NCBI GenBank assembly: GCA_020853525.1
Contig: JADYYS010000043.1
Location: 1 to 44,841 of the forward strand
Reading direction: 5' to 3'
From: Ardenticatenales bacterium
Lineage (GTDB): Bacteria > Chloroflexota > Anaerolineae > Epilineales > Epilineaceae
DNA length: 44,841 nt
Shown here: positions 20,096-31,638 of the stretch, one piece after another
Numbering within the stretch: the first letter of the stretch is position 1
How the letters are laid out: every line of letters starts with the position of its first letter
The notes under the pieces: generated by a model
The model's database searches: none
What the model was told of the DNA's origin: nothing
The model's input: the letters and a program-made list of their open reading frames with translations, nothing else
Translations under genes and position numbers: made by a program

Positions 20096-22405
20096 CTACG
20101 GCACCCGCCCGATCTCAACCGTCACGCCGTCTCCCGCCCCGTCGCCACGCCGCAGCGGCGCATCCGGGTCGCCTGCGTAGAGCCCGGCGACGATCGGCAA
20201 TCCGTGCGCGCCCGGCGGCAACCGGAGCACACGCTGGTCGACGACGACGTCGCCGGTGCGCCACCGGCCCACCGGGTAGACGCCGTGGCCCAGAGGCGCA
20301 TCGACGCTTGTGTCCACGCGGTTGCCCGCGGCGTCGCGCACGTGGATGAACAGCGTGGCGTCGCCGACGGCCGGCGGACCGTCGATGTGCCAGCGCGTCG
20401 TCACGCGGACGGCGCCCGGCGCGTCGGCCCACGGCGGCCAGGCATCGCGCGCGGCGGCCGATCCGGAGGCCGGCGGGCCGGCGCCGATGGCCACGCCGTC
20501 CAGGGAAGGGCCGTTGACAAACCGCGCGGTCGCTCCGGCGCCGGGACGCAGTTCCGGCGGGAGGCGCGGGCCGAGCGCGCGCACGGACAGCGGGCTCGCT
20601 TGCGCGGCCAGATCGCCCCGCTCGATGATCGGCTGCAGGAACGCCAGCTCGGCGCCATCGGCCGGCAGCTTGGCCCAGACCTCGTCCAGCCGCAGCCCAT
20701 AGGGCACGATGAACGCCACGCCGCCTCCGTCGCGGCCGCCGCCGTCGCCGCCGCCGTCGCCGAACAGCACCGGATCGTACGGGTCGGTCAACGTCACGCG
20801 GTCCATCGGGATCAGAAATGGTACGCTGGCCCAGCCGTCGCGCAAGCGCCGGTCCAGCCACACGTGGCGGCCCGACGCGAGCGCCGCGTTCACCTCGCGC
20901 GCCAGCGTCGTCGCCCCGCCGTCGAAGGCGTGATAGGCGCGCGGCCACACGAGGCGTGCCCGCACCGCCCGCACGCGCTCGGGCAAGCGCTCGGCCGCGG
21001 CCTCCGTCGGCAGCGCGACCGCCTCAGCGTCCGCCGGCAGCGCGAGCGCCCCGGCCCCCGTCGGAACGGTGTGCGCCTCGGCATCCGTCGCCGCCACGAC
21101 CGCCACCGTCCGCTCCGCCAGCGGGTCCGCTGCCCGGCCCGCATCCAGCGCGGCATCATAGTGGACGATGTCGCGCCCCTCGAGGGCCACCGCCAGCGCG
21201 ACGAGCGCCCACGCGGCGGTGCGGCCGGCGGTCCCCCACCGCCCGCCCGCCCAGCCGACGAGCGCCGCGCCGCCGACGGCGGCTGTCCCGACGAGCGCCG
21301 GCATCAGGCCGACGGCGCGCAGGAAGTGGGGCGCGTCCGCGGCGAGGGCGGTCGGCAGGGCGAAGGCGGCGGTGGCGGCGAGGAGGAGGGCGGCGGCGCG
21401 GCGTCGACGCGGGGTCGACGTCGGGCGCAGCCATGCGCATGCGACGACGATGCCCAGCAGCCACAGCGCCGCCGCCAGCGGCCCGAACACGGGCCGAAAT
21501 GGTATGTTATGTCGCGCGATACGGTCCCCGGCCACAAACACGAGTCCGGCCGTGCGGCCGAAGCTCGCGATCAGCGCGTCGGTCGCCACCGCCGACGATG
21601 ACGCCCCAGACCCGCCATCGCCCGTCACCGCCACCTGCGCCAGCCGCCCGACGAGCGCACCGGGCGTGCGCGCCATCGCGACGGCGAGCGGCAGCGCGAC
21701 GAGCGCGGCGGCACCGAGCCAGCGGGCGGCCGTCGCGCGCGCCGGCGCCGTGATCGCCAGCGCGACGGCCAGCGCCACCGCAACGGGCAACGCCCGCGCA
21801 GCCGTGTACGTGTACAGCGACAGCCCCGCCAAGGCCCCGCCGAACGCCACCCAGCGCCCGTCCCGCCGGTCGATGCCGCGCAGCGTCGCCGCACCCGACA
21901 GCGCCAGCACGGCCGGCAGCAGCCCGGCGCGCAGGCCCGTCCGGCCGAGAAGCGTCGCCCACGGCAGGACGGCCGTCAGCGCCGCGGCGATCACGCCCGC
22001 CCGGCGGCCGGCCAGGCGGGCGCCGAGTGCGTACATCGCCGCGACGAGCACGACGCTCGCGGCCAGCGCGGGCAGGCGGACGGCCGCGATGAGCGGCAGG
22101 CGCGCCGTCGGCGCAACGGGCCCCATCGCCCACTCGCTCAGGCCGACGAGCCAGATGAACAGCGGCTCGCGCCCGTTGTTGGCCGCGTACCACAGCCGCG
22201 GACCGTCGACGAGCGTGGCGAGGCCGTCGAGGCCGTAGTGGGCCTCGTCGCGGTAGAGGCCGGGCGGGAAGGCGTGCGTCGGGGCGCGGAGGGCGGCGGC
22301 GGAGAGAAGCGCGACGGCGACGGCGAGACGGGCGGGCCAAGGGGTGCGCCACTGGGCTCGCCAACGGGTGCGCGAAGAGGTGCGCGAATCGGGGGAGGTC
22401 CGCAT
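20096..22405 (-). CDS. GT39/ArnT-like polytopic membrane glycosyltransferase
   Basis: This 769-residue integral membrane protein has roughly 11 hydrophobic helices in the first ~430 residues and a soluble C-terminal part. The first external loop holds PPGLYRDEAHYGLDGL with D53-E54, the acidic pair of GT-C/PMT-type enzymes. A second loop has NNGREPLFIWL, also typical of this fold. Such proteins move sugars from a polyprenyl-phosphate carrier to protein or glycan on the outer face. Donor and acceptor are unknown. The ATG at 22405 is the first possible start and follows a candidate -10 box by about 15 bases. Its start region overlaps that of the divergent nnr gene. Confidence 0.8.
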   Translation of the reverse strand: MRTSPDSRTSSRTRWRAQWRTPWPARLAVAVALLSAAALRAPTHAFPPGLYRDEAHYGLDGLATLVDGPRLWYAANNGREPLFIWLVGLSEWAMGPVAPTARLPLIAAVRLPALAASVVLVAAMYALGARLAGRRAGVIAAALTAVLPWATLLGRTGLRAGLLPAVLALSGAATLRGIDRRDGRWVAFGGALAGLSLYTYTAARALPVAVALAVALAITAPARATAARWLGAAALVALPLAVAMARTPGALVGRLAQVAVTGDGGSGASSSAVATDALIASFGRTAGLVFVAGDRIARHNIPFRPVFGPLAAALWLLGIVVACAWLRPTSTPRRRRAAALLLAATAAFALPTALAADAPHFLRAVGLMPALVGTAAVGGAALVGWAGGRWGTAGRTAAWALVALAVALEGRDIVHYDAALDAGRAADPLAERTVAVVAATDAEAHTVPTGAGALALPADAEAVALPTEAAAERLPERVRAVRARLVWPRAYHAFDGGATTLAREVNAALASGRHVWLDRRLRDGWASVPFLIPMDRVTLTDPYDPVLFGDGGGDGGGRDGGGVAFIVPYGLRLDEVWAKLPADGAELAFLQPIIERGDLAAQASPLSVRALGPRLPPELRPGAGATARFVNGPSLDGVAIGAGPPASGSAAARDAWPPWADAPGAVRVTTRWHIDGPPAVGDATLFIHVRDAAGNRVDTSVDAPLGHGVYPVGRWRTGDVVVDQRVLRLPPGAHGLPIVAGLYAGDPDAPLRRGDGAGDGVTVEIGRVP

Positions 22406-24110
22406 GGGCGGGCTATCGTATCATATCGACGTGACCCCCATTGCCACCGCCGCCCAGATGCGCGCCATCGAGGCCGAGGCCGACCGGCGCGGGCATCCGT
22501 ATGCGGTCATGGTGGACCTGGCGGGGCGGGCGGTGGCTCGGGAGGTCATGGGCCTGGCGGACGAACGGGACATCGCGCATCCGACCGTCCTTGTGCTGTG
22601 CGGCCCCGGCAACAACGGCGGCGACGGCCTTGTCGCGGCCGCCGTCCTCGCCGACGCCGGCATGGCGGTGCGCGTCGTGACGTGGCGGCGTGCGCCGGAC
22701 GAGCGCGTGGCCGAGGCCCGGGCGCACGACGTGCCGATCCTGGCGCTGGACGCGCCGCACGGCGACGCCGCCGACGTCGCGCCGTCCGATCTCGAAGGGA
22801 CGGCGGCCGCCGGCTCGATCGCAGGCTGGCTGGCCGAGGCCGACATCGTCGTCGACGCGCTGCTCGGCACGGGCGCGCGCGGGCCGCTCACCGGCGCCGT
22901 CGCCGATCTCCTCGACCACGTCGCCGCCGCCCGGCCGCCGCTCGTCGTCGCCGTCGACCTCCCGACCGGGCTCGACGCGGACAGCGGCACGCTCGACGCC
23001 CACGCCCACGCCGCCGACCTGACCGTGACCTTCGGCTGTGCGAAGCCCGGCCACGTGTCGTTCCCGGGCGCGGCCGCGGTCGGGCGGCTCGTCGTGGACC
23101 GCATCGGCATCGCGGGCGATATCATCCGGGCGTGCGCCGCGCCCCCGCTCGGCATCGTCACGGACGCGGACGTCGCCGGCTGGCTCCCGCCGCGCGCACC
23201 GGACGCCCACAAGGGCACGTTCGGGCGGACGCTCGTCATCGCCGGGTCGCGGGCCTACCCCGGGGCCGCGGCGCTGGCGGCCGGCGGGGCATACCGTTCC
23301 GGCTGCGGGCTCGTGACCGTCGCCGCCACGGCCGAGGTGCGCGCCGCCGTGGCTGCCCACCTGCCCGAGGTCACCTACCTCCCGCTGCCCGAGGTGCACG
23401 GCGGGATATCGGCCGCAGCCGCCGAAGCGGTCCGCACCGCGTGGCTGGCCTACGACGCCGTCCTGATCGGCCCGGGCCTCAGCCGGGACCGGGGCGTCGC
23501 CGAGTTCGTTCGGGTGCTGCTCGACGGTCTGAGCGACCTGCTGGAGGACGCCCGGCCCGGCCGCGTCGTCGTCGACGCCGACGGCCTGAATCTGCTCGCC
23601 GACCATCCCGCCGGCCCGCGCGCGCTGCCGATCGGCGCCGTGCTCACGCCCCACCCGGGCGAGATGGCCCGCCTCACCGGCATGACCGTCGCCGCCGTGA
23701 ATGCCGACCGCTTGGCCGTGGCGCGCCGCTGGGCCGCCGCGTGGCGCCACGTCGTCGTCCTCAAGGGCGCCTACACCGTCGTCGCCGCGCCGGACGGGCG
23801 ATGCGCCATCGTCCCGATCGCCACCGCCGCCCTGGCCAAGGCCGGCACGGGCGACGTCCTCGCCGGCCTGATCGCCGGCCTGCTGGCCGCCGGCGCGCCG
23901 CAGTTCGAGGCCGCCGCCTCGGCCGTGCACGCCCACGCCCTGGCGGGCCTGCGCCTCGCCGCATCCCCTGCCGGCGACCGCGCCGCCGTCGCCGGCGACC
24001 TCCTGGCTCACATCGGCCCGGTCTGGCGCTCGCTGGAGGATGGGTCGCCCATCGCGCCGGCCCATCGAATGACGACCGGCGCCGACGCGGCGCGCCCCCC
24101 ATCGGAGTGA
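22404..24110 (+). CDS. nnr: Bifunctional NAD(P)HX epimerase / ADP-dependent NAD(P)HX dehydratase
   Basis: This two-domain repair enzyme restores hydrated NADH and NADPH. The N-terminal YjeF_N epimerase domain (TAAQMRAIEAEADRRG; CGPGNNGGDGLVAA; VDLPTGLDAD) covers about the first 230 residues. The C-terminal ribokinase-like dehydratase domain has HKGTFGRTLVIAGS, LTPHPGEMARLTG, VVLKGAYTVV and AKAGTGDVLAGLIAG. The ATG at 22404 has GGAGG five bases upstream but overlaps the start of the divergent gene. A GTG at 22431 is an alternative start that fits the family N-terminus and a -10 box just before it. The CHAD gene begins four bases after the stop, so the two form an operon. Confidence 0.92.
   Translation: MGGLSYHIDVTPIATAAQMRAIEAEADRRGHPYAVMVDLAGRAVAREVMGLADERDIAHPTVLVLCGPGNNGGDGLVAAAVLADAGMAVRVVTWRRAPDERVAEARAHDVPILALDAPHGDAADVAPSDLEGTAAAGSIAGWLAEADIVVDALLGTGARGPLTGAVADLLDHVAAARPPLVVAVDLPTGLDADSGTLDAHAHAADLTVTFGCAKPGHVSFPGAAAVGRLVVDRIGIAGDIIRACAAPPLGIVTDADVAGWLPPRAPDAHKGTFGRTLVIAGSRAYPGAAALAAGGAYRSGCGLVTVAATAEVRAAVAAHLPEVTYLPLPEVHGGISAAAAEAVRTAWLAYDAVLIGPGLSRDRGVAEFVRVLLDGLSDLLEDARPGRVVVDADGLNLLADHPAGPRALPIGAVLTPHPGEMARLTGMTVAAVNADRLAVARRWAAAWRHVVVLKGAYTVVAAPDGRCAIVPIATAALAKAGTGDVLAGLIAGLLAAGAPQFEAAASAVHAHALAGLRLAASPAGDRAAVAGDLLAHIGPVWRSLEDGSPIAPAHRMTTGADAARPPSE
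22417..22425. promoter_or_regulatory. Overlapping divergent -10 boxes
   Basis: TATCATAT-like sequence reads TATCAT (22419-22424) on the plus strand and TATGAT (22425-22420) on the minus strand. The minus box would give a leader of about 8 bases to the GT39-like gene. The plus box would start transcription about at the GTG at 22431. No convincing -35 box was found. Confidence 0.35.
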
Positions 24111-24114
24111 CCGA

Positions 24115-25926
24115 GTGACGAAAGCCCCCGCCCAGACACCGCCCGCACCCCCCACGCCGCCTGCCAACCCCATCCTCGTCGCCCTCGCCCGCACCTTCCC
24201 CGTGCCCGCCGCCCGCTACGCCGTGCCGGTTTCGGGCGGCGGCGCGGACGCCGACGGGACGATCGCCCGCATCGCGCTGGCCGTTGCCGCCCTCGACCCG
24301 CCGCTCGTCATCGCACAGCGCGGCCGGGAGAGCCGGCGCTGGCGCTACGTCGACACGTTCGACGGCCTCGTGCACCGGGCGGGCGGGACGCTGGCCGTCG
24401 TCGCCCCGGCGGGGACGTCGCGGGCCAAGGCGGGCGGCGCGTCGGGCAAGAGCGATCCGGCGACGGACGGCACCGCGGGGCGCGACGAGCGCGACGATGC
24501 GGAGGCCGGGCCGTGGCTGATGTGGCAGGCGCACGACGGCCGGATCCTCGACGCGGTTGCCTGGCCCGACGGACCGCCCCCCGCGTTCGCCCGCGACCTC
24601 CCCGCCGGCGCCTTCCGCGACGCGCTCGCCGCGATCACGGAGCCGCGCCGACTGCTCCCGCTGGTCGACGTCACGGCGGCGTACCGAACGTACGGCATCG
24701 TCGACGGCGAGGGCAAGACCGTCGTGCGGCTGCGGCTGGGCGCGGGCACCGCCGCCGTCGAGGCTTCACCCGCCGGCGGGTCCGGCCGGTCGAGCGGCGA
24801 GTTGGCGCCCTGGATCGACGTGCTCGCCGTTCGGGGCTACGACAAGGCGCTGGCCGCGGTGCGCGATGCCGTCGCCCGGCTGTCGAAGTCCGGCGGCCAG
24901 GGTGCGAAAGCGGATTCGTCGTTCGTTCCGGGCCTCGTCGTGCCGGCGCTCGCGACGGTCGGCGTGAAGCCGGGCGGCGTCAGCGGCAAGTTCGACGTAC
25001 CGCTCAGCGCCGATGCGCGGGCGGACGCCGCCTCGGCGACGATCTTCCGGGCGCTCCTGCAGGCGATCCGCACGAGCGAGCCCGGCACCCGCGCCGACGT
25101 CGACCCCGAGTTCCTCCATGACTTCCGCGTGGCGGTCCGACGCACGCGCGCCGGGCTGACGCTCTTGCAGGACGCGCTGCCGCCGGCGGTTGTCGAGCAC
25201 TTCAAGGCCGAGTTCGGCTGGATGGGCGCGGTCACCGGGCCGACGCGCGACCTCGACGTCTACCTCGAGAACATGCCGGCCTACCGCGCCGCGCTGCCGC
25301 CCGAGGTCGGCCACGATCTCGGGCCGCTGGAGGCCTACCTGCGCACCCGCCAGGCGAACGCGCACGCCGAGCTCGTCGCGGCGCTCGACAGTCCGCGCTA
25401 CGCCGCGCTGCTCGCGGACTGGTCGGCCGCACTGGACGACATCGCCGCGAACGGCGCCGACGCGCCGGCGGCCGCCGAGCCGATCGCCGAGCTCGGGGCG
25501 CGGCGGACGTGGCGGCGCTTCAAGCGCGTGCTGGACGACGGGCGCATCATCGGGCCGGACACGCCGGTCGGCGCGCTGCACCAGCTGCGGATCGAGGCCA
25601 AGAAGCTGCGCTACGCGCTCGAGTTCTTCCGCCGCCTTGTCCCGCCGGCCGAGGCGGACGCCCTGATCGGCAGCCTGAAGGGCCTCCAGGACAACCTCGG
25701 CACACTGAACGACATGGGCGTGCAGCAGGGCGCGATGCGCGCGTTCGCCGCCGACATCGGCCGGCGGCCGTCCAACAGCGCCACGCTGCTGGCGATGGGC
25801 TGGCTGACGCACGACCTCCACGCGCGCGAGCACGCCTGCCGGCTCGAGTTCGCCGCCCGGTTCGATGCGTTCGACGCGAAGGACAACCGGCAGCGCTACG
25901 AGCGACTGTTCAGGCCGCGCCGATGA
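24115..25926 (+). CDS. CHAD domain protein with divergent CYTH-like N-terminal region
   Basis: The protein has 603 residues. The C-terminal ~300 residues are a CHAD helical domain with its basic histidine motifs: H335 in EFLHDFRVAVRRTR and H489 in LHQLRIEAKKLRYALEFF. CHAD domains bind inorganic polyphosphate and can direct proteins to polyphosphate granules. The N-terminal ~300 residues contain a weakly CYTH-like pattern (RWRYVDTFDGLVHRAGG, RLLPLVDVTAAYRTYGI); CYTH domains hydrolyse or bind triphosphates. The start is GTG with GGAG seven bases upstream. The stop overlaps the ATG of the ParA-like gene (ATGA), so the two proteins are made together. Polyphosphate binding is well supported by the family, and the coupling to ParA is the unusual part. 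Confidence 0.88.
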   Translation: MTKAPAQTPPAPPTPPANPILVALARTFPVPAARYAVPVSGGGADADGTIARIALAVAALDPPLVIAQRGRESRRWRYVDTFDGLVHRAGGTLAVVAPAGTSRAKAGGASGKSDPATDGTAGRDERDDAEAGPWLMWQAHDGRILDAVAWPDGPPPAFARDLPAGAFRDALAAITEPRRLLPLVDVTAAYRTYGIVDGEGKTVVRLRLGAGTAAVEASPAGGSGRSSGELAPWIDVLAVRGYDKALAAVRDAVARLSKSGGQGAKADSSFVPGLVVPALATVGVKPGGVSGKFDVPLSADARADAASATIFRALLQAIRTSEPGTRADVDPEFLHDFRVAVRRTRAGLTLLQDALPPAVVEHFKAEFGWMGAVTGPTRDLDVYLENMPAYRAALPPEVGHDLGPLEAYLRTRQANAHAELVAALDSPRYAALLADWSAALDDIAANGADAPAAAEPIAELGARRTWRRFKRVLDDGRIIGPDTPVGALHQLRIEAKKLRYALEFFRRLVPPAEADALIGSLKGLQDNLGTLNDMGVQQGAMRAFAADIGRRPSNSATLLAMGWLTHDLHAREHACRLEFAARFDAFDAKDNRQRYERLFRPRR

Positions 25927-26684
25927 GGATCATCGCCAGCTACGCGATCAAGGGCGGCGTCGGCAAGACGGCCACGGCGGTCAACCTGGCGTGGGAGGCG
26001 TGGCGGGGCGGCGCCTCGGTCCTCGTGTGGGACATGGACCCGCAGGGGGCGGCGTCGTTCTATTTCCGGGTGGCGCCGGACGCGCACGGCGGCGCCAAGC
26101 AGCTCGTGAAGGGCGACACGGACATCGCATCGCTCGTCCGCGGCTCCGACTTCGACGGCCTCGACGTCCTGCCCGCCGACTTCACGTACCGCCACCTCGA
26201 CCTCTACCTGGACGCCGCCAAGCGGCCGACGCGCCGCCTCGTCCGCCTGCTCGCCCCCCTCGCCGAGCGCTATGACTACGCCGTGCTGGACTGCGCACCC
26301 GGCATCACGCTGACGAGTGAGAGCGTCTTCGCCCTGGCCGACGCCCTGATCGTCCCGACCGTCCCGACGACCCTCTCCCTGCGGACGCTCGACCAACTGG
26401 CGGCGCACCTCCGCACGCACGACGCCGGCGGCGCCGTGACGCGGCCGTTCCTGAGCATGGTCGACCGGCGCAAGGCCCTCCACCGCGCCCTGACGGATGC
26501 GATCCTGGACGGCGGCATGCCGACGCCGTTCCCCTTCCTGCGCACCGTCGTCCCGTACCTCAGCGCCGTCGAGCGCATGGGCACGCAGCGCGCGCCGGTG
26601 GGCGTCTTCGCGCCGGGTGATCCGGCGGCGCAGGCGTATCGGGCGTTGTGGGGCGAGGTGCGCGAGGTCGTCGGGGGGCGATAG
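25923..26684 (+). CDS. ParA/MinD-type ATPase, orphan
   Basis: This 253-residue ATPase has the deviant Walker A motif KGGVGKT (residues 10-16, signature Lys in KGGVGK), the WDMDPQG switch and Walker B AVLDCAPG. These are features of ParA-family proteins that position cargo on the nucleoid or membrane. No ParB, parS-like site or replication gene is nearby. It overlaps the CHAD gene by four bases (ATGA), which implies a stoichiometric link. The C-terminal part (VERMGTQRAPVGVFAPGDPAAQAYRALWGEV) is as in short ParA proteins. A role in placing polyphosphate bodies is a hypothesis drawn from the gene pair. A regulatory ATPase unrelated to positioning remains possible. Confidence 0.88.
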   Translation: MRIIASYAIKGGVGKTATAVNLAWEAWRGGASVLVWDMDPQGAASFYFRVAPDAHGGAKQLVKGDTDIASLVRGSDFDGLDVLPADFTYRHLDLYLDAAKRPTRRLVRLLAPLAERYDYAVLDCAPGITLTSESVFALADALIVPTVPTTLSLRTLDQLAAHLRTHDAGGAVTRPFLSMVDRRKALHRALTDAILDGGMPTPFPFLRTVVPYLSAVERMGTQRAPVGVFAPGDPAAQAYRALWGEVREVVGGR

Positions 26685-26911: not shown

Positions 26912-28186
26912 CTACTGGGCGGGCAACCGCATCCAGATCAGGCACCACATCGAGTTGCTCGTGTCGCCCGGCTGCGGGAACCGCCACTGCACCGTTGGCT
27001 GGCACGCAACGAGTTGTGTCTGGCACTCGTCGGCCTTGCGCATCGGTCCAAGCGCGTTCGTCAGCGAGTTCTGCACCATCACGGTGTAGGCCACGTCAAA
27101 GCCCGCGAAGTCGGGCGAGCCGGTCAGCGGCACGAGGCGCCACGTGTCGCCGCCCTGCGTATAGGCGCGCACGTACTGCAGGTCCATGGCGTAGTGGCTG
27201 TGCATCTGCGGGCCGAGCGGACACGTGTTGACGTTGTCCAGGCTGCTGCCGTTCATGCTGATCAGGCCGCTGTTGACCGGATGTCCGAGCAGGTTGCCAC
27301 AGTTCATGAACTGCCCGGTGACCGGGTTCAGCTGGCACGTGTGGACGTTCGTTTGGCCGGTGCGGTCGTTGCGATAGGTCACCGTGTACGTGACCTCCCA
27401 GCCGTGCTCGCCGGCGGCATTCAGCTTGTTGCGGTAGCGAGCGCTGACCGCGCCGTCGTGCTCCGGCCCGACGGGGCCGGACGGCGGGCACGGATTGATG
27501 AAGGGGTGCGGCGGCCACGTCAGGAAGTCCGGATCGAGGCCGGCGCGCACGGACTTCACGCCGAAGTCGGCCGTCGGCGTCGGGGCCGGCGTCTGCGTCA
27601 TCGTGGGCGCAACCGTCGGGGTGTAGGTCGGCGTCGGCATCTCCGTCGGCGTCAGCGTGGGCTCCGGCATCGACGTGGGCACGTCGGTCGGGGTGCTGGT
27701 CGCGGTCGGCGGCGGCGGGTCGCAGTCACAGCACTGCACCGTCGCGAACAGCAGGTTGATGTCCGTGCCGACGGCCTGAACCTGTCCGACCGTGCTGCCG
27801 GCGCAGAGACACGACGCATCGAACGAGAACGTTTCGTCGTCGACGTCCACGAAGGCGTTGTAGTCCAGGCCGCTGCCGGTGCAGTGGACGCGGATCTCGA
27901 CCGAGTCCTGCCGGGTGCACGTCGTCCCGCCGCCGACGACGCGGTAGCCGGCGGACGGATTGCAGTCCCACGGGACCGGCGGGCTGACCGACACGAGATG
28001 ACACGGGCTCGTCGCGCAATCGCACGTGGTGATGTCGCTCTGCGAGCAGCCGTCACTCTGCGCCATCGGCGCCGCCGACATGGTCCCCCCATCGGCGGGC
28101 CACCACGCGCCGGCCGCTCCGGCGAAGATCGCCGCGAGGGCGAGCGAGGTTCGCATCCTCATGCGTACGGACATCAAGCGGTTCAT
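26912..28186 (-). CDS. Cys-rich secreted protein with Thr/Pro linker, unknown function
   Basis: The protein has 424 residues and is not recognised at family level. The ATG at 28186 has AAGGAG six bases upstream and starts a signal peptide (RMRMRTSLALAAIFAGAAGA). Residues ~45-165 hold about 13 cysteines in short spacings (CSQSDITTCDCATSPCH ... CLCAG ... QCCDCD), suggesting a disulfide-rich module. A Thr/Pro linker (about 165-225) follows. The C-terminal ~200 residues contain ANP-type beta strands (WEVTYTVTYRNDRTGQTNVHTC, GSSLDNVNTCPLGPQMHSHYAMDLQYV, FAGFDVAYTVMVQNSLTNALG). Probably extracellular. Metal binding by the Cys module cannot be excluded, but export argues for disulfides. Confidence 0.72.
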   Translation of the reverse strand: MNRLMSVRMRMRTSLALAAIFAGAAGAWWPADGGTMSAAPMAQSDGCSQSDITTCDCATSPCHLVSVSPPVPWDCNPSAGYRVVGGGTTCTRQDSVEIRVHCTGSGLDYNAFVDVDDETFSFDASCLCAGSTVGQVQAVGTDINLLFATVQCCDCDPPPPTATSTPTDVPTSMPEPTLTPTEMPTPTYTPTVAPTMTQTPAPTPTADFGVKSVRAGLDPDFLTWPPHPFINPCPPSGPVGPEHDGAVSARYRNKLNAAGEHGWEVTYTVTYRNDRTGQTNVHTCQLNPVTGQFMNCGNLLGHPVNSGLISMNGSSLDNVNTCPLGPQMHSHYAMDLQYVRAYTQGGDTWRLVPLTGSPDFAGFDVAYTVMVQNSLTNALGPMRKADECQTQLVACQPTVQWRFPQPGDTSNSMWCLIWMRLPAQ

Positions 28187-28351
28187 CGATCGCTCCTTGT
28201 GGTTTGGGGTACGTGCCCGCCTGTGCTCGGCGGGTGCTGCCATGTGCATGGGCCACAGTGTTCGCACCCCCCGTTGCCCGGGCGTAACTGCGGCGTTACA
28301 AACCGCCCGGACGAGGGCATGGCGCCTCTTTCGACCCGACCGTTCGAGCGG

Positions 28352-28380
28352 TTGCCTCTTGAGGACCGTACCGGTATGTT
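28352..28380 (+). promoter_or_regulatory. Promoter for the cyclase/STAND regulator
   Basis: TTGCCT, a 17-base spacer and TATGTT stand 60 bases before the TTG at 28441. The 28187-28407 divergent gap also has a GTAAC-N6-GTTAC inverted repeat near 28293, a possible operator. Confidence 0.4.
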
Positions 28381-28440
28381 CCGCCTCTGTCGGACCGCCA
28401 TCGCATCGTGCGCCGATCGAGCCCGCCGGAGCCATCGCCC

Positions 28441-31400
28441 TTGAACTGCCGCTGCCCGTCGTGCGCCGCCGAGCTGCGCCAGCTCACCGTCCTGTTCTGC
28501 GACCTCGTCGGCTCCACGGCGCTCTCCGAGCAGCTCGACCCCGAGGCGCTGCGCGACGTCCTGCGCGACTACCAGTCCGTCGCCGGCCGCGTCGTGGCGC
28601 GCTACGAGGGGCACTTGGACAAGTGCATGGGCGACGGGCTGCTGGCGTACTTCGGCTATCCGAAGGCGCACGAGGACGACGCCCAGCGCGCCGTCCGGGC
28701 CGGCCTGGCGATCCTCGAGGGCCTCGATCCGCTGCGCGCACGGGTGCTGCGCGAGCACGGGGCCGAGCTGCACGCCCGGATCGGCATCCACACCGGTCCG
28801 GTCGTCGCCGGCGACATGGGCGGCGACGATGCGAACGAAGCCAAGGCCGTCGTCGGCCGGACGCCCAACCTGGCGGCGCGGCTGCAGGACCGCGCCGCGC
28901 ACGACACGGTGGTCATCAGCGCCGATACGTTCCGGCTGGTGCAGGGCTACTTCGAGACCGTGCCGCTCGGCAGCCACGCCCTCAAGGGGATCGCCGAGCC
29001 CGTCGACCTCTTCCACGTCCGCCGCGAGAGCGGCGCGCGGAACCGCCTGGAAGCGGCCGCCGAGGGCGAGCTGACGCCGATGGTCGGCCGCGAGCCCGAG
29101 ATCGGGCTGCTGGCCGGGCGCTGGGATGCGGTCCTCGACGGGCAGGGCCAGGCGGTGCTCATCGTCGGCGAGGCCGGGATCGGCAAGTCCCGCATCCTGC
29201 AGGCGATGAAGGAGCGCGTCGCGGCCGACGCCGGTGCGTGGCTGACGGAGTGCTTCTGCTCGCCGTACCACACCCAGAGCGCGCTGTACCCCGTCATCGA
29301 CCTCTTCACCCGCGTGATCCTCGGCTTCGGGCGCGGCGACGACCCAGCCGCCCGCCTGACGAAGATCGAGGGCTTCATCGCCCAGTACGGCCTGCCGCCC
29401 GAGCCGAACGTGCCGCTGCTGGCCGATCTGCTCTCCGTGCCCTACGACGGCCGCTACCCGGAGCTGGGCGTCGCGCCCGAGCGGCACAAGCAGCTCACGC
29501 TGCAGCTGATGGTCGATCTGCTCCTCCGGCGCGCCGCCGTCCAGCCGCTCCTGCTCGTGCACGAGGACCTCCACTGGGCCGACCCGACGACCCTCGAGAT
29601 GCTCGAGATGATCATCGGCGCGGCCGCCGAGTCGCGCCTCATGCTGCTCATGACGTCGCGGCCCGGCCACGACATCGCCGTCGCGCGCCGGTCCGAGGTG
29701 GCCCAGCTCACGCTCAGCCGCCTGAGCGACGGCCAGACATCGCGCGTGGCGGCCCGCGTAAGCGGCGGGCTGGAGCTGCCGCCGGAGGTCATGGCGCAGA
29801 TCGTCGCCAAGACGGACGGGGTGCCGCTGTACATCGAAGAGCTGACGAAGATGGTCATCGAGGCCGGCCTCGTCGTCGTGAAGGACGGCCGCTACGTGGC
29901 CGTCGGCCCGATCGGCGCATTGGCGATCCCGGCGACGCTCCAGGACTCCCTCGTCGCCCGCCTCGACCGCTTGTCGACCGAGAAGCTGATCGCCCAAGTG
30001 GGGGCGACGATCGGGCGCGAGTTCGGCTACGACGTCATCGCCGCCGCCGCGCCGTGCGACACGCCGACGCTGCACAGCGGCCTTGAACGCCTCGTCGCGG
30101 CGCAGCTCGTCTTCCAGCGCGGCACGCCGCCGGACGCGCGCTACGTCTTCAAGCACGCCCTCGTCCAGGACGCCGCCTACGGCTCGATGCTCACCGGCGT
30201 CCGCCGCCAGCACCACGCCCGCATCGCCGATGCCTACATCGAGCGCTTCCCCGAGGTCGCCGCGACCCAGCCCGAGCTCGTGGCGCACCACCTCACCGAG
30301 GCGGGCGATGCCGAGCACGCGATGGGCTACTGGCAGCGGGCGGGCATGCGCGCGCTGGCCAGGGCGGCGCCGCGCGAGGCCGTCGCGCACCTCTCCAAGG
30401 CGCTCGACGAGCTGGCGAGGTGGCCCGCGGGAATCGAGCACACGGGGCACGAGCTGGCGCTGCATGCCGCGCTCGGTCAAGCGCACCTGATCTTCGAGGG
30501 CTACTCGTCACCCAACGTCGAGCGCCACCTGTCCCTCGCCCGCGATCTGTGCGAGCGGCTCGGCCACCCGCCGGTGACCGGCCCGGTTACGTGGGGCCTG
30601 TGGGCGTGCTACCTGGTGCGGGGCGATTACGCCCGGACACGGCTCCTGTCCGACGAGTTCCGCGCGGCGTGCGAGCGCGTCGGCGACGACGACGGGCTCG
30701 TCGAGGCCTACATGATGTCCGGCATCGACCGCTACTACGTCGCCGAGGCCGAGGGTGCGGCCGAGTTCTTCGAGCGCTGCGCCGAAGCCTACGATCCGGC
30801 GCGCCACAGCGGGCGGATCCTGGAGTACGGCAACGACTGCGGCATGGCCGGGCGGGCCTACCACAGCCTCCTGTTGTGGTGGCAGGGCCGTCCCATCGAG
30901 GCGCTGCGGGTGTGCGAGGAAGGCCTGGCGATGGCCCGCGCCGTCGGCCATCCCTACATGATCGGCTTCAACCTCACCTTCGCCGCCCGCCTCCACCAGA
31001 TGCGCCACGACCTCCCGTCCCTCTTCGCGGCCGCCGACGAGTGCATCGCCATCGCCGTCGAGCGCGGCTTCCCGATCTGGGAGGGCTACTGCCGCATCGT
31101 CCGCGGCTGGGCGCGCGTGGTGCAAGGCGACGCCGACGCGGGCCTGGCCGAGCTGGGCGCCGGCGTCGACATCTGGCGGGCGATCGGCGCGCGTCTGTGG
31201 CTGCCGTACTTCCTCGGCCTCCTGGCCGACGCCTGCCGCATTGCCGGGCGGTTCGACGAGGGGCTCGCGGCGGTGGCTGAGGCGCAGGCGGTTGCGGAGG
31301 CCACGGGGGAGCGGATTGATGATGCACGGTTGCTGGAGTTGCGGGGGGCGTTGCGCGTGGCGAAGGGTGGGGGTGAGGGGGGGGGCGCGAGGGAGGCCAA

Positions 31401-31638
31401 GGCCGGGGAAGCAGACTTGCGCGAGGCGTTGGCCATGGCGCAGGCGATGGGGGCGGTGAGTTGGGCGCTGCAGGCGGCGCGGTCGTTGGCGGGGTGCCTC
31501 GCCGCCACGGGACGGCGCGACGAAGCCGGGGCGATCCTCGGACCCGCGCTTGACGTCTTCAGCGAGGGGGGTGACGAGGTGGATCAGGTGGAGGGGCGGG
31601 GGAAGTTGGCGGCGCTTATCGGAGTTGCGGCGGGGTAA
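28441..31638 (+). CDS. Class III adenylate/guanylate cyclase fused to AAA/STAND ATPase and TPR-like repeats
   Basis: The protein has 1065 residues from the TTG at 28441, which follows GGAG by about nine bases and gives the family-style start MNCRCPSC. A GTG at 28408 is the alternative. The cyclase domain (10-190) has both metal aspartates, D21 (LFCDLVGST) and D65 (MGDGLLAYFGYP), and the transition-state pair N143/R147 in VVGRTPNLAARLQ, so it may be active. The ATPase domain has the P-loop GEAGIGKS (243-250) and LLLVHEDLHWADPTTLEML. The rest is helical, TPR-like repeats to the end. Such proteins are cytoplasmic signal integrators; the ligand is unknown. The last ~100 codons have G-rich codon use with a run of nine G at 31377-31385. 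Confidence 0.9.
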   Translation: MNCRCPSCAAELRQLTVLFCDLVGSTALSEQLDPEALRDVLRDYQSVAGRVVARYEGHLDKCMGDGLLAYFGYPKAHEDDAQRAVRAGLAILEGLDPLRARVLREHGAELHARIGIHTGPVVAGDMGGDDANEAKAVVGRTPNLAARLQDRAAHDTVVISADTFRLVQGYFETVPLGSHALKGIAEPVDLFHVRRESGARNRLEAAAEGELTPMVGREPEIGLLAGRWDAVLDGQGQAVLIVGEAGIGKSRILQAMKERVAADAGAWLTECFCSPYHTQSALYPVIDLFTRVILGFGRGDDPAARLTKIEGFIAQYGLPPEPNVPLLADLLSVPYDGRYPELGVAPERHKQLTLQLMVDLLLRRAAVQPLLLVHEDLHWADPTTLEMLEMIIGAAAESRLMLLMTSRPGHDIAVARRSEVAQLTLSRLSDGQTSRVAARVSGGLELPPEVMAQIVAKTDGVPLYIEELTKMVIEAGLVVVKDGRYVAVGPIGALAIPATLQDSLVARLDRLSTEKLIAQVGATIGREFGYDVIAAAAPCDTPTLHSGLERLVAAQLVFQRGTPPDARYVFKHALVQDAAYGSMLTGVRRQHHARIADAYIERFPEVAATQPELVAHHLTEAGDAEHAMGYWQRAGMRALARAAPREAVAHLSKALDELARWPAGIEHTGHELALHAALGQAHLIFEGYSSPNVERHLSLARDLCERLGHPPVTGPVTWGLWACYLVRGDYARTRLLSDEFRAACERVGDDDGLVEAYMMSGIDRYYVAEAEGAAEFFERCAEAYDPARHSGRILEYGNDCGMAGRAYHSLLLWWQGRPIEALRVCEEGLAMARAVGHPYMIGFNLTFAARLHQMRHDLPSLFAAADECIAIAVERGFPIWEGYCRIVRGWARVVQGDADAGLAELGAGVDIWRAIGARLWLPYFLGLLADACRIAGRFDEGLAAVAEAQAVAEATGERIDDARLLELRGALRVAKGGGEGGGAREAKAGEADLREALAMAQAMGAVSWALQAARSLAGCLAATGRRDEAGAILGPALDVFSEGGDEVDQVEGRGKLAALIGVAAG

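Follow-up and report, generated by a model that had tools for sequence, protein, structure and literature searches.

What does a ParA-type ATPase act on when its gene overlaps that of a CHAD-domain protein? ParA-type ATPases space plasmids and carboxysomes, and the original prediction for the locus described here was that the CHAD protein is a cargo adaptor and the ATPase a positioning motor for polyphosphate (polyP) granules. The locus lies in a 44,841 nucleotide stretch of DNA from an Ardenticatenales bacterium (contig JADYYS010000043.1 of assembly GCA_020853525.1), which is called the window below. The features concerned are as follows:

22344–24110, + strand: NAD(P)H-hydrate epimerase/dehydratase gene, ending 4 nt before the CHAD gene
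24115–25926, + strand: CHAD protein, 603 aa, GTG start; proposed polyP-granule adaptor
24181–24969, + strand: N-terminal domain of the CHAD protein, predicted CYTH/TTM fold (about residues 23–285, AlphaFold2)
24979–25923, + strand: long CHAD domain (about residues 289–603)
25923–25926, + strand: ATGA overlap of the CHAD stop and ParA start, read in the sequence
25923–26684, + strand: ParA-type ATPase, 253 aa, ATG start; orphan, in a distinct CHAD-associated clade

The GTG start of the CHAD gene is preceded by GGAG at 24104–24107, seven bases on its 5′ side. The CHAD protein matches the Pfam CHAD model (PF05235) over residues 310–540 with an E value of 1.1e-59 (202.6 bits; cut-off 25.6), and the ATPase matches AAA_31 (E 1.7e-27, 96.9 bits) and has an intact KGGVGKT motif, D39 and D123; no NCBIfam model scores above its cut-off for either protein. 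The claimed ATGA overlap is present, the two genes sharing bases 25923–25926, and exactly the same 4-nt overlap is found in 52 of the 75 homologous pairs with a measurable gap (a set in which two contigs each appear under two names, L025/L130 and L043/L133). The overlap is thus not a chance arrangement, and translational coupling of CHAD and ParA is probable. The upstream NAD(P)H-hydrate epimerase/dehydratase gene is probably co-transcribed with the CHAD gene; it is absent from the recurrent neighbours of the homologous loci and so is not a conserved partner. Downstream, the product of a 507-aa open reading frame (26912–28435, − strand) that is convergent with parA matches no Pfam model, contains a segment rich in T and P and is possibly secreted. 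About 1.7 kb beyond the pair, the gene at 28408–31638 (+ strand) encodes a large protein in which an adenylate/guanylate cyclase domain is combined with an ATPase domain of the AAA_16 type.

The pair had been described as lying near no ParB gene or parS site, and this description is correct. The sole ParB_N match in the genome is on another contig (C55:93698), beside a different, chromosomal-type ParA (C55:92767), and a scan of the window at up to 3 mismatches found no parS-like site. Since the only ParB adjoins another ParA and the window has no parS, the ATPase is an orphan in the ParABS sense, and a role in plasmid or chromosome partition was rejected on the same grounds. A role in defence was also dropped, the only PADLOC match being a weak 36-residue P-loop match.

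Conservation beyond close relatives had been named beforehand as a point on which the prediction could fail, and it did not fail there. When 84,980 species genomes were scanned for this ParA, 59 of the best 80 loci proved to have a CHAD gene directly upstream: 58 are same-strand neighbours recovered by a distance filter, and one (L086) is adjacent but was missed by it. Two further loci, L061 and L120, start at a contig edge. The linked pairs span at least 11 phyla, Pseudomonadota, Acidobacteriota, Actinomycetota, Chloroflexota, Chlorobiota, Planctomycetota, Gemmatimonadota, Lentisphaerota, Myxococcota, Thermodesulfobacteriota and Dormibacterota, as labelled in the sequence records, many of which are metagenome bins whose single assignments may be wrong. 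Both genes are present in 19 of 20 Chlorobi loci examined. Within the window's own class (phylum Chloroflexota), 25 of 396 genomes match this ParA at >175 bits, while other ParAs in a 60-genome sample of the class score near or below 81 bits, and of the 26 loci in the class, with that of the window included, 18 have CHAD directly upstream. A search for a fixed third partner turned up none: apart from CHAD, which alone is nearly universal beside this ParA, each neighbour is shared by about one in eight loci at most. In methanotrophs (loci L062, L063, L081 and L112; L068, L083, L087 and L122), a gene for glycogen phosphorylase or for an MgtE magnesium transporter often lies 3′ of ParA, which may point to storage or to polyP counter-ions.

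These ATPases form a distinct clade. A maximum-likelihood tree (128 sequences) separates all of the CHAD-type ParAs from 19 other ParAs of the window's class at a branch supported at 100/100 (bootstrap/aLRT), and none of 20 other ParA loci that were fetched has a CHAD gene. KGGVGKT is invariant in 110 of 110 clade members, and residues such as Y7, R49, R90, E133, F176, H187, E217, M219, R223 and W243 are clade-specific (at least 90% conserved within the clade and absent from other ParAs). The window ATPase scores 45 bits against McdA and 51 bits against Soj, and McdA structures score 45 bits compared with 200–250 bits for most of the clade. By fold the ATPase is somewhat closer to Soj: its model (pLDDT 84.9) matches the Soj/ParA structure 8ray (Z 27.9, 238 residues, rmsd 2.8) and matches Soj 2bej with Z 27.5. 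A quick tree, whose deep support is weak, groups the window ParA with those of Actinomycetota and Acidobacteriota and not with most of its class mates. The six nearest sequenced relatives (G001–G006) lack this ParA and the pair, which fits a horizontal gain, and from these sequence comparisons such a gain is likely. One sub-branch of the clade (L026, L032, L033, L190 (genus g41), L106, L108 and L132) has no CHAD neighbour. In most of its genomes CHAD is either of a different type, weak or missing, G117 excepted (this genome has one solitary and one CHAD-paired ParA copy), which counts against a ParA/adaptor pair; the sub-branch may use another adaptor.

Is the CHAD partner of these ATPases a polyP-binding protein? 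The structure closest to the window's CHAD domain is 6qv7 (Z 36.1, 313 residues, rmsd 1.9), the CtCHAD protein of Chlorobaculum tepidum, for which polyP binding and a crystal structure with bound polyP have been reported (PMC6537752). Mutation of CtCHAD H253, R256 and R260 weakens polyP binding, and R296 and R418/Y419 were also mutated (PMC6537752); with numbering matched by motif, these residues align with H335, R338, R342, R378, R499 and Y500 of the window protein, all of which are invariant in 50 relatives. In a genome with a 100% CtCHAD match (taken as C. tepidum TLS), a ParA of the clade lies 5 nt after the CHAD gene and PPK1 lies two genes upstream, so a CHAD protein whose binding of polyP is proven belongs to a pair of this kind. 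A green sulfur bacterium has been reported to contain as many as three polyP granules in a cell (PMC11269200), and polyP granules are visible by tomography in Chloroflexales (PMC7332563).

The N-terminal half of the CHAD protein bears on whether it might be an enzyme. In the AlphaFold2 model of the protein (pLDDT 87.3) this domain is rich in beta structure and along its entire length resembles the eight-stranded tunnel of CYTH/TTM enzymes; the structures matched by residues 14–286 all have TTM/CYTH or related folds (Z about 12, ~180 residues, rmsd ~3.7). The window protein lacks the ExExK catalytic metal motif that such enzymes have near the N-terminus, as do 49 of 50 relatives that are paired or of the same type; the one ExExK-like match, EEEER, is off position. 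A different motif, D-T-F-D-W-R-L, is conserved in its place. Because ExExK is lost in the paired proteins and is kept by several CYTH-CHAD proteins of the class that are not paired (e.g., L007, L016 and L020), the former are probably not phosphatases and their motif content points rather to an adaptor.

The two genes are also associated when they are not adjacent. Some CHAD protein is encoded in 25 of the 25 class genomes with a clade ParA and in 205 of the 371 others (55%; Fisher p = 7e-7, an optimistic value given the shared ancestry of the genomes), and a CHAD gene is present in 25 of 28 carrier genomes that have at least one unpaired ParA copy. In Methylococcales with split pairs, 11 of 11 keep the same long CHAD type elsewhere, sometimes beside pstS or sixA. 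The same CHAD type occurs without this ParA in some relatives (L005/G026), which we count against a ParA/adaptor pair, and G002 likewise has CHAD and not this ParA. CHAD therefore does not need ParA, and the dependence of ParA on CHAD is one-sided, as carriers have CHAD while CHAD occurs without ParA; such a pattern would be seen if the target of ParA were something that CHAD marks. PPK1 is present in 44 of the 46 carriers checked (a figure for carriers only, with no background rate; the two without a match, G397 and G418, count against the pair but are draft genomes) and is also encoded in the window's own genome. PPK1, CYTH, SixA, PstS or PPX genes lie near some pairs. A SixA-like histidine phosphatase gene adjoins CHAD or ParA at 9 of the best 80 ParA loci (e.g., L113, L123, L184, L191 and L192). 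Taken with the polyP-binding orthologue in the same kind of pair and the conserved contact residues, the co-occurrence with PPK1 and the nearby polyP genes give good support to the predicted link between this pair and polyP.

We think it probable that the ParA/adaptor pair positions polyP granules on the nucleoid, and we infer contact between CHAD and ParA, nucleoid binding by ParA and granule movement as its parts. The CHAD domain would coat the granule, with chains of polyP bound across its basic pore, and the CYTH-like domain, its catalysis probably lost, would act as a scaffold or contact surface. The partner ParA would bind ATP, dimerise and coat the nucleoid, and touching a CHAD-coated granule would trigger ATP hydrolysis and release; granules would then travel the ParA gradient, stay apart and be shared between daughter cells, as in McdAB. 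Inspection of the CHAD tails by eye revealed no conserved basic ParA-activating peptide, which also counts against a ParA/adaptor pair; any CHAD–ParA contact would consequently need a folded surface or a variable tail. For the broader proposal, that a dedicated ParA clade and a polyP-binding CYTH-like/CHAD adaptor constitute a widespread and ancient system for ATP-driven positioning of polyP granules, our confidence is moderate, somewhat above even.

Not every ParA relative is a positioning protein; BcsQ and FleN/FlhG are regulatory. The ATPase here could accordingly be an ATP-dependent switch on CHAD with control over the assembly of granules, the access of PPK1 or phosphate signalling, and the Z scores of 24–25 between its model and BcsQ and FleN structures, like the location of CHAD genes beside pstS, sixA, ppx or ppk1 in several genomes, are what such a switch might lead one to find. 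Soj/ParA structures nevertheless score somewhat higher (Z 27–28), PPK1 is near only 7 of the best 80 loci and the pair has no regulatory-looking feature, and we regard a switch as unlikely, if the most serious competitor to positioning. A pair that merely sits together, ParA being co-transcribed with CHAD and having some other cargo with no physical contact between them, would account for the ParA sub-branch without a CHAD neighbour and for ParA genes that adjoin glycogen phosphorylase or MgtE instead, but it sits badly with pairing across 11 phyla, the frequent 4-nt overlap and the 25 of 25 co-occurrence in the class, and we consider it very improbable.

Hardly more credible is an action on the chromosome, in which CHAD–ParA ties polyP to the nucleoid and stored polyP organises or compacts DNA in starvation. 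DNA binding is common among ParA relatives, and in Pseudomonas aeruginosa the nucleoid region is where polyP granules arise, and they influence exit from the cell cycle (PMC9239181); against this, Pfam finds no DNA-binding domain in the CHAD protein, and the CHAD domains described in the literature show no binding of nucleic acid (PMC6537752). Granule positioning remains our preferred reading of the pair.

If it is true, polyP granules are to be counted among the actively partitioned cargoes, beside carboxysomes, chemoreceptor clusters and plasmids, and granule placement would be explained in many phyla by a dedicated ParA and its polyP-binding partner. A large group of orphan ParA ATPases would gain a cargo, and the CHAD proteins paired with them a role. 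A 2025 review of organelle positioning names only AlgP, and no ParA, for polyP granules, describes the granule-positioning proteins of Caulobacter as unidentified and asks whether energy is spent (PMC13052382). Neither CHAD nor polyP is mentioned in a survey of multiple ParA/MinD ATPases in one bacterium (PMC10241942), and our search of the open-access literature (preprints and subscription papers lay outside it) found no paper that proposes a ParA for polyP.

Several known systems resemble the pair in part. A precedent in gene content comes from Acidithiobacillus: a 2024 paper describes folD, ppk, parA and CHAD as a group of genes conserved in the genus and regards parA as a plasmid-partition gene (PMC10892726). 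The neighbours are the same as those of the pair here, but that paper draws no positioning role and does not describe the breadth of the pairing, the clade or the loss of the CYTH motif. AlgP of P. aeruginosa also spaces polyP granules through a link to the nucleoid (PMC9239181, PMC13052382), but it is a passive histone-like DNA binder, whereas the pair here includes an ATPase. With ParABS (Soj/Spo0J) the ATPase shares the ParA fold and an intact KGGVGKT, and it differs in having neither ParB nor parS and in belonging to a separate clade. The CHAD phosins (those of R. eutropha, S. lividans PptA and CtCHAD) and YgiF share the CHAD domain, YgiF has the same TTM + CHAD layout as the window protein, and polyP binding has been shown for YgiF as it has for CtCHAD (PMC6537752); unlike these, the window protein has a TTM/CYTH domain that lacks ExExK, and its gene is coupled to a ParA gene. 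McdAB likewise consists of a ParA-type ATPase and a dedicated non-ParB partner that space a body on the nucleoid, as we propose for this pair; no carboxysome gene was found among the ORFs scanned near the pair, the proposed adaptor is CYTH-like + CHAD rather than McdB, and the cargo would be polyP.
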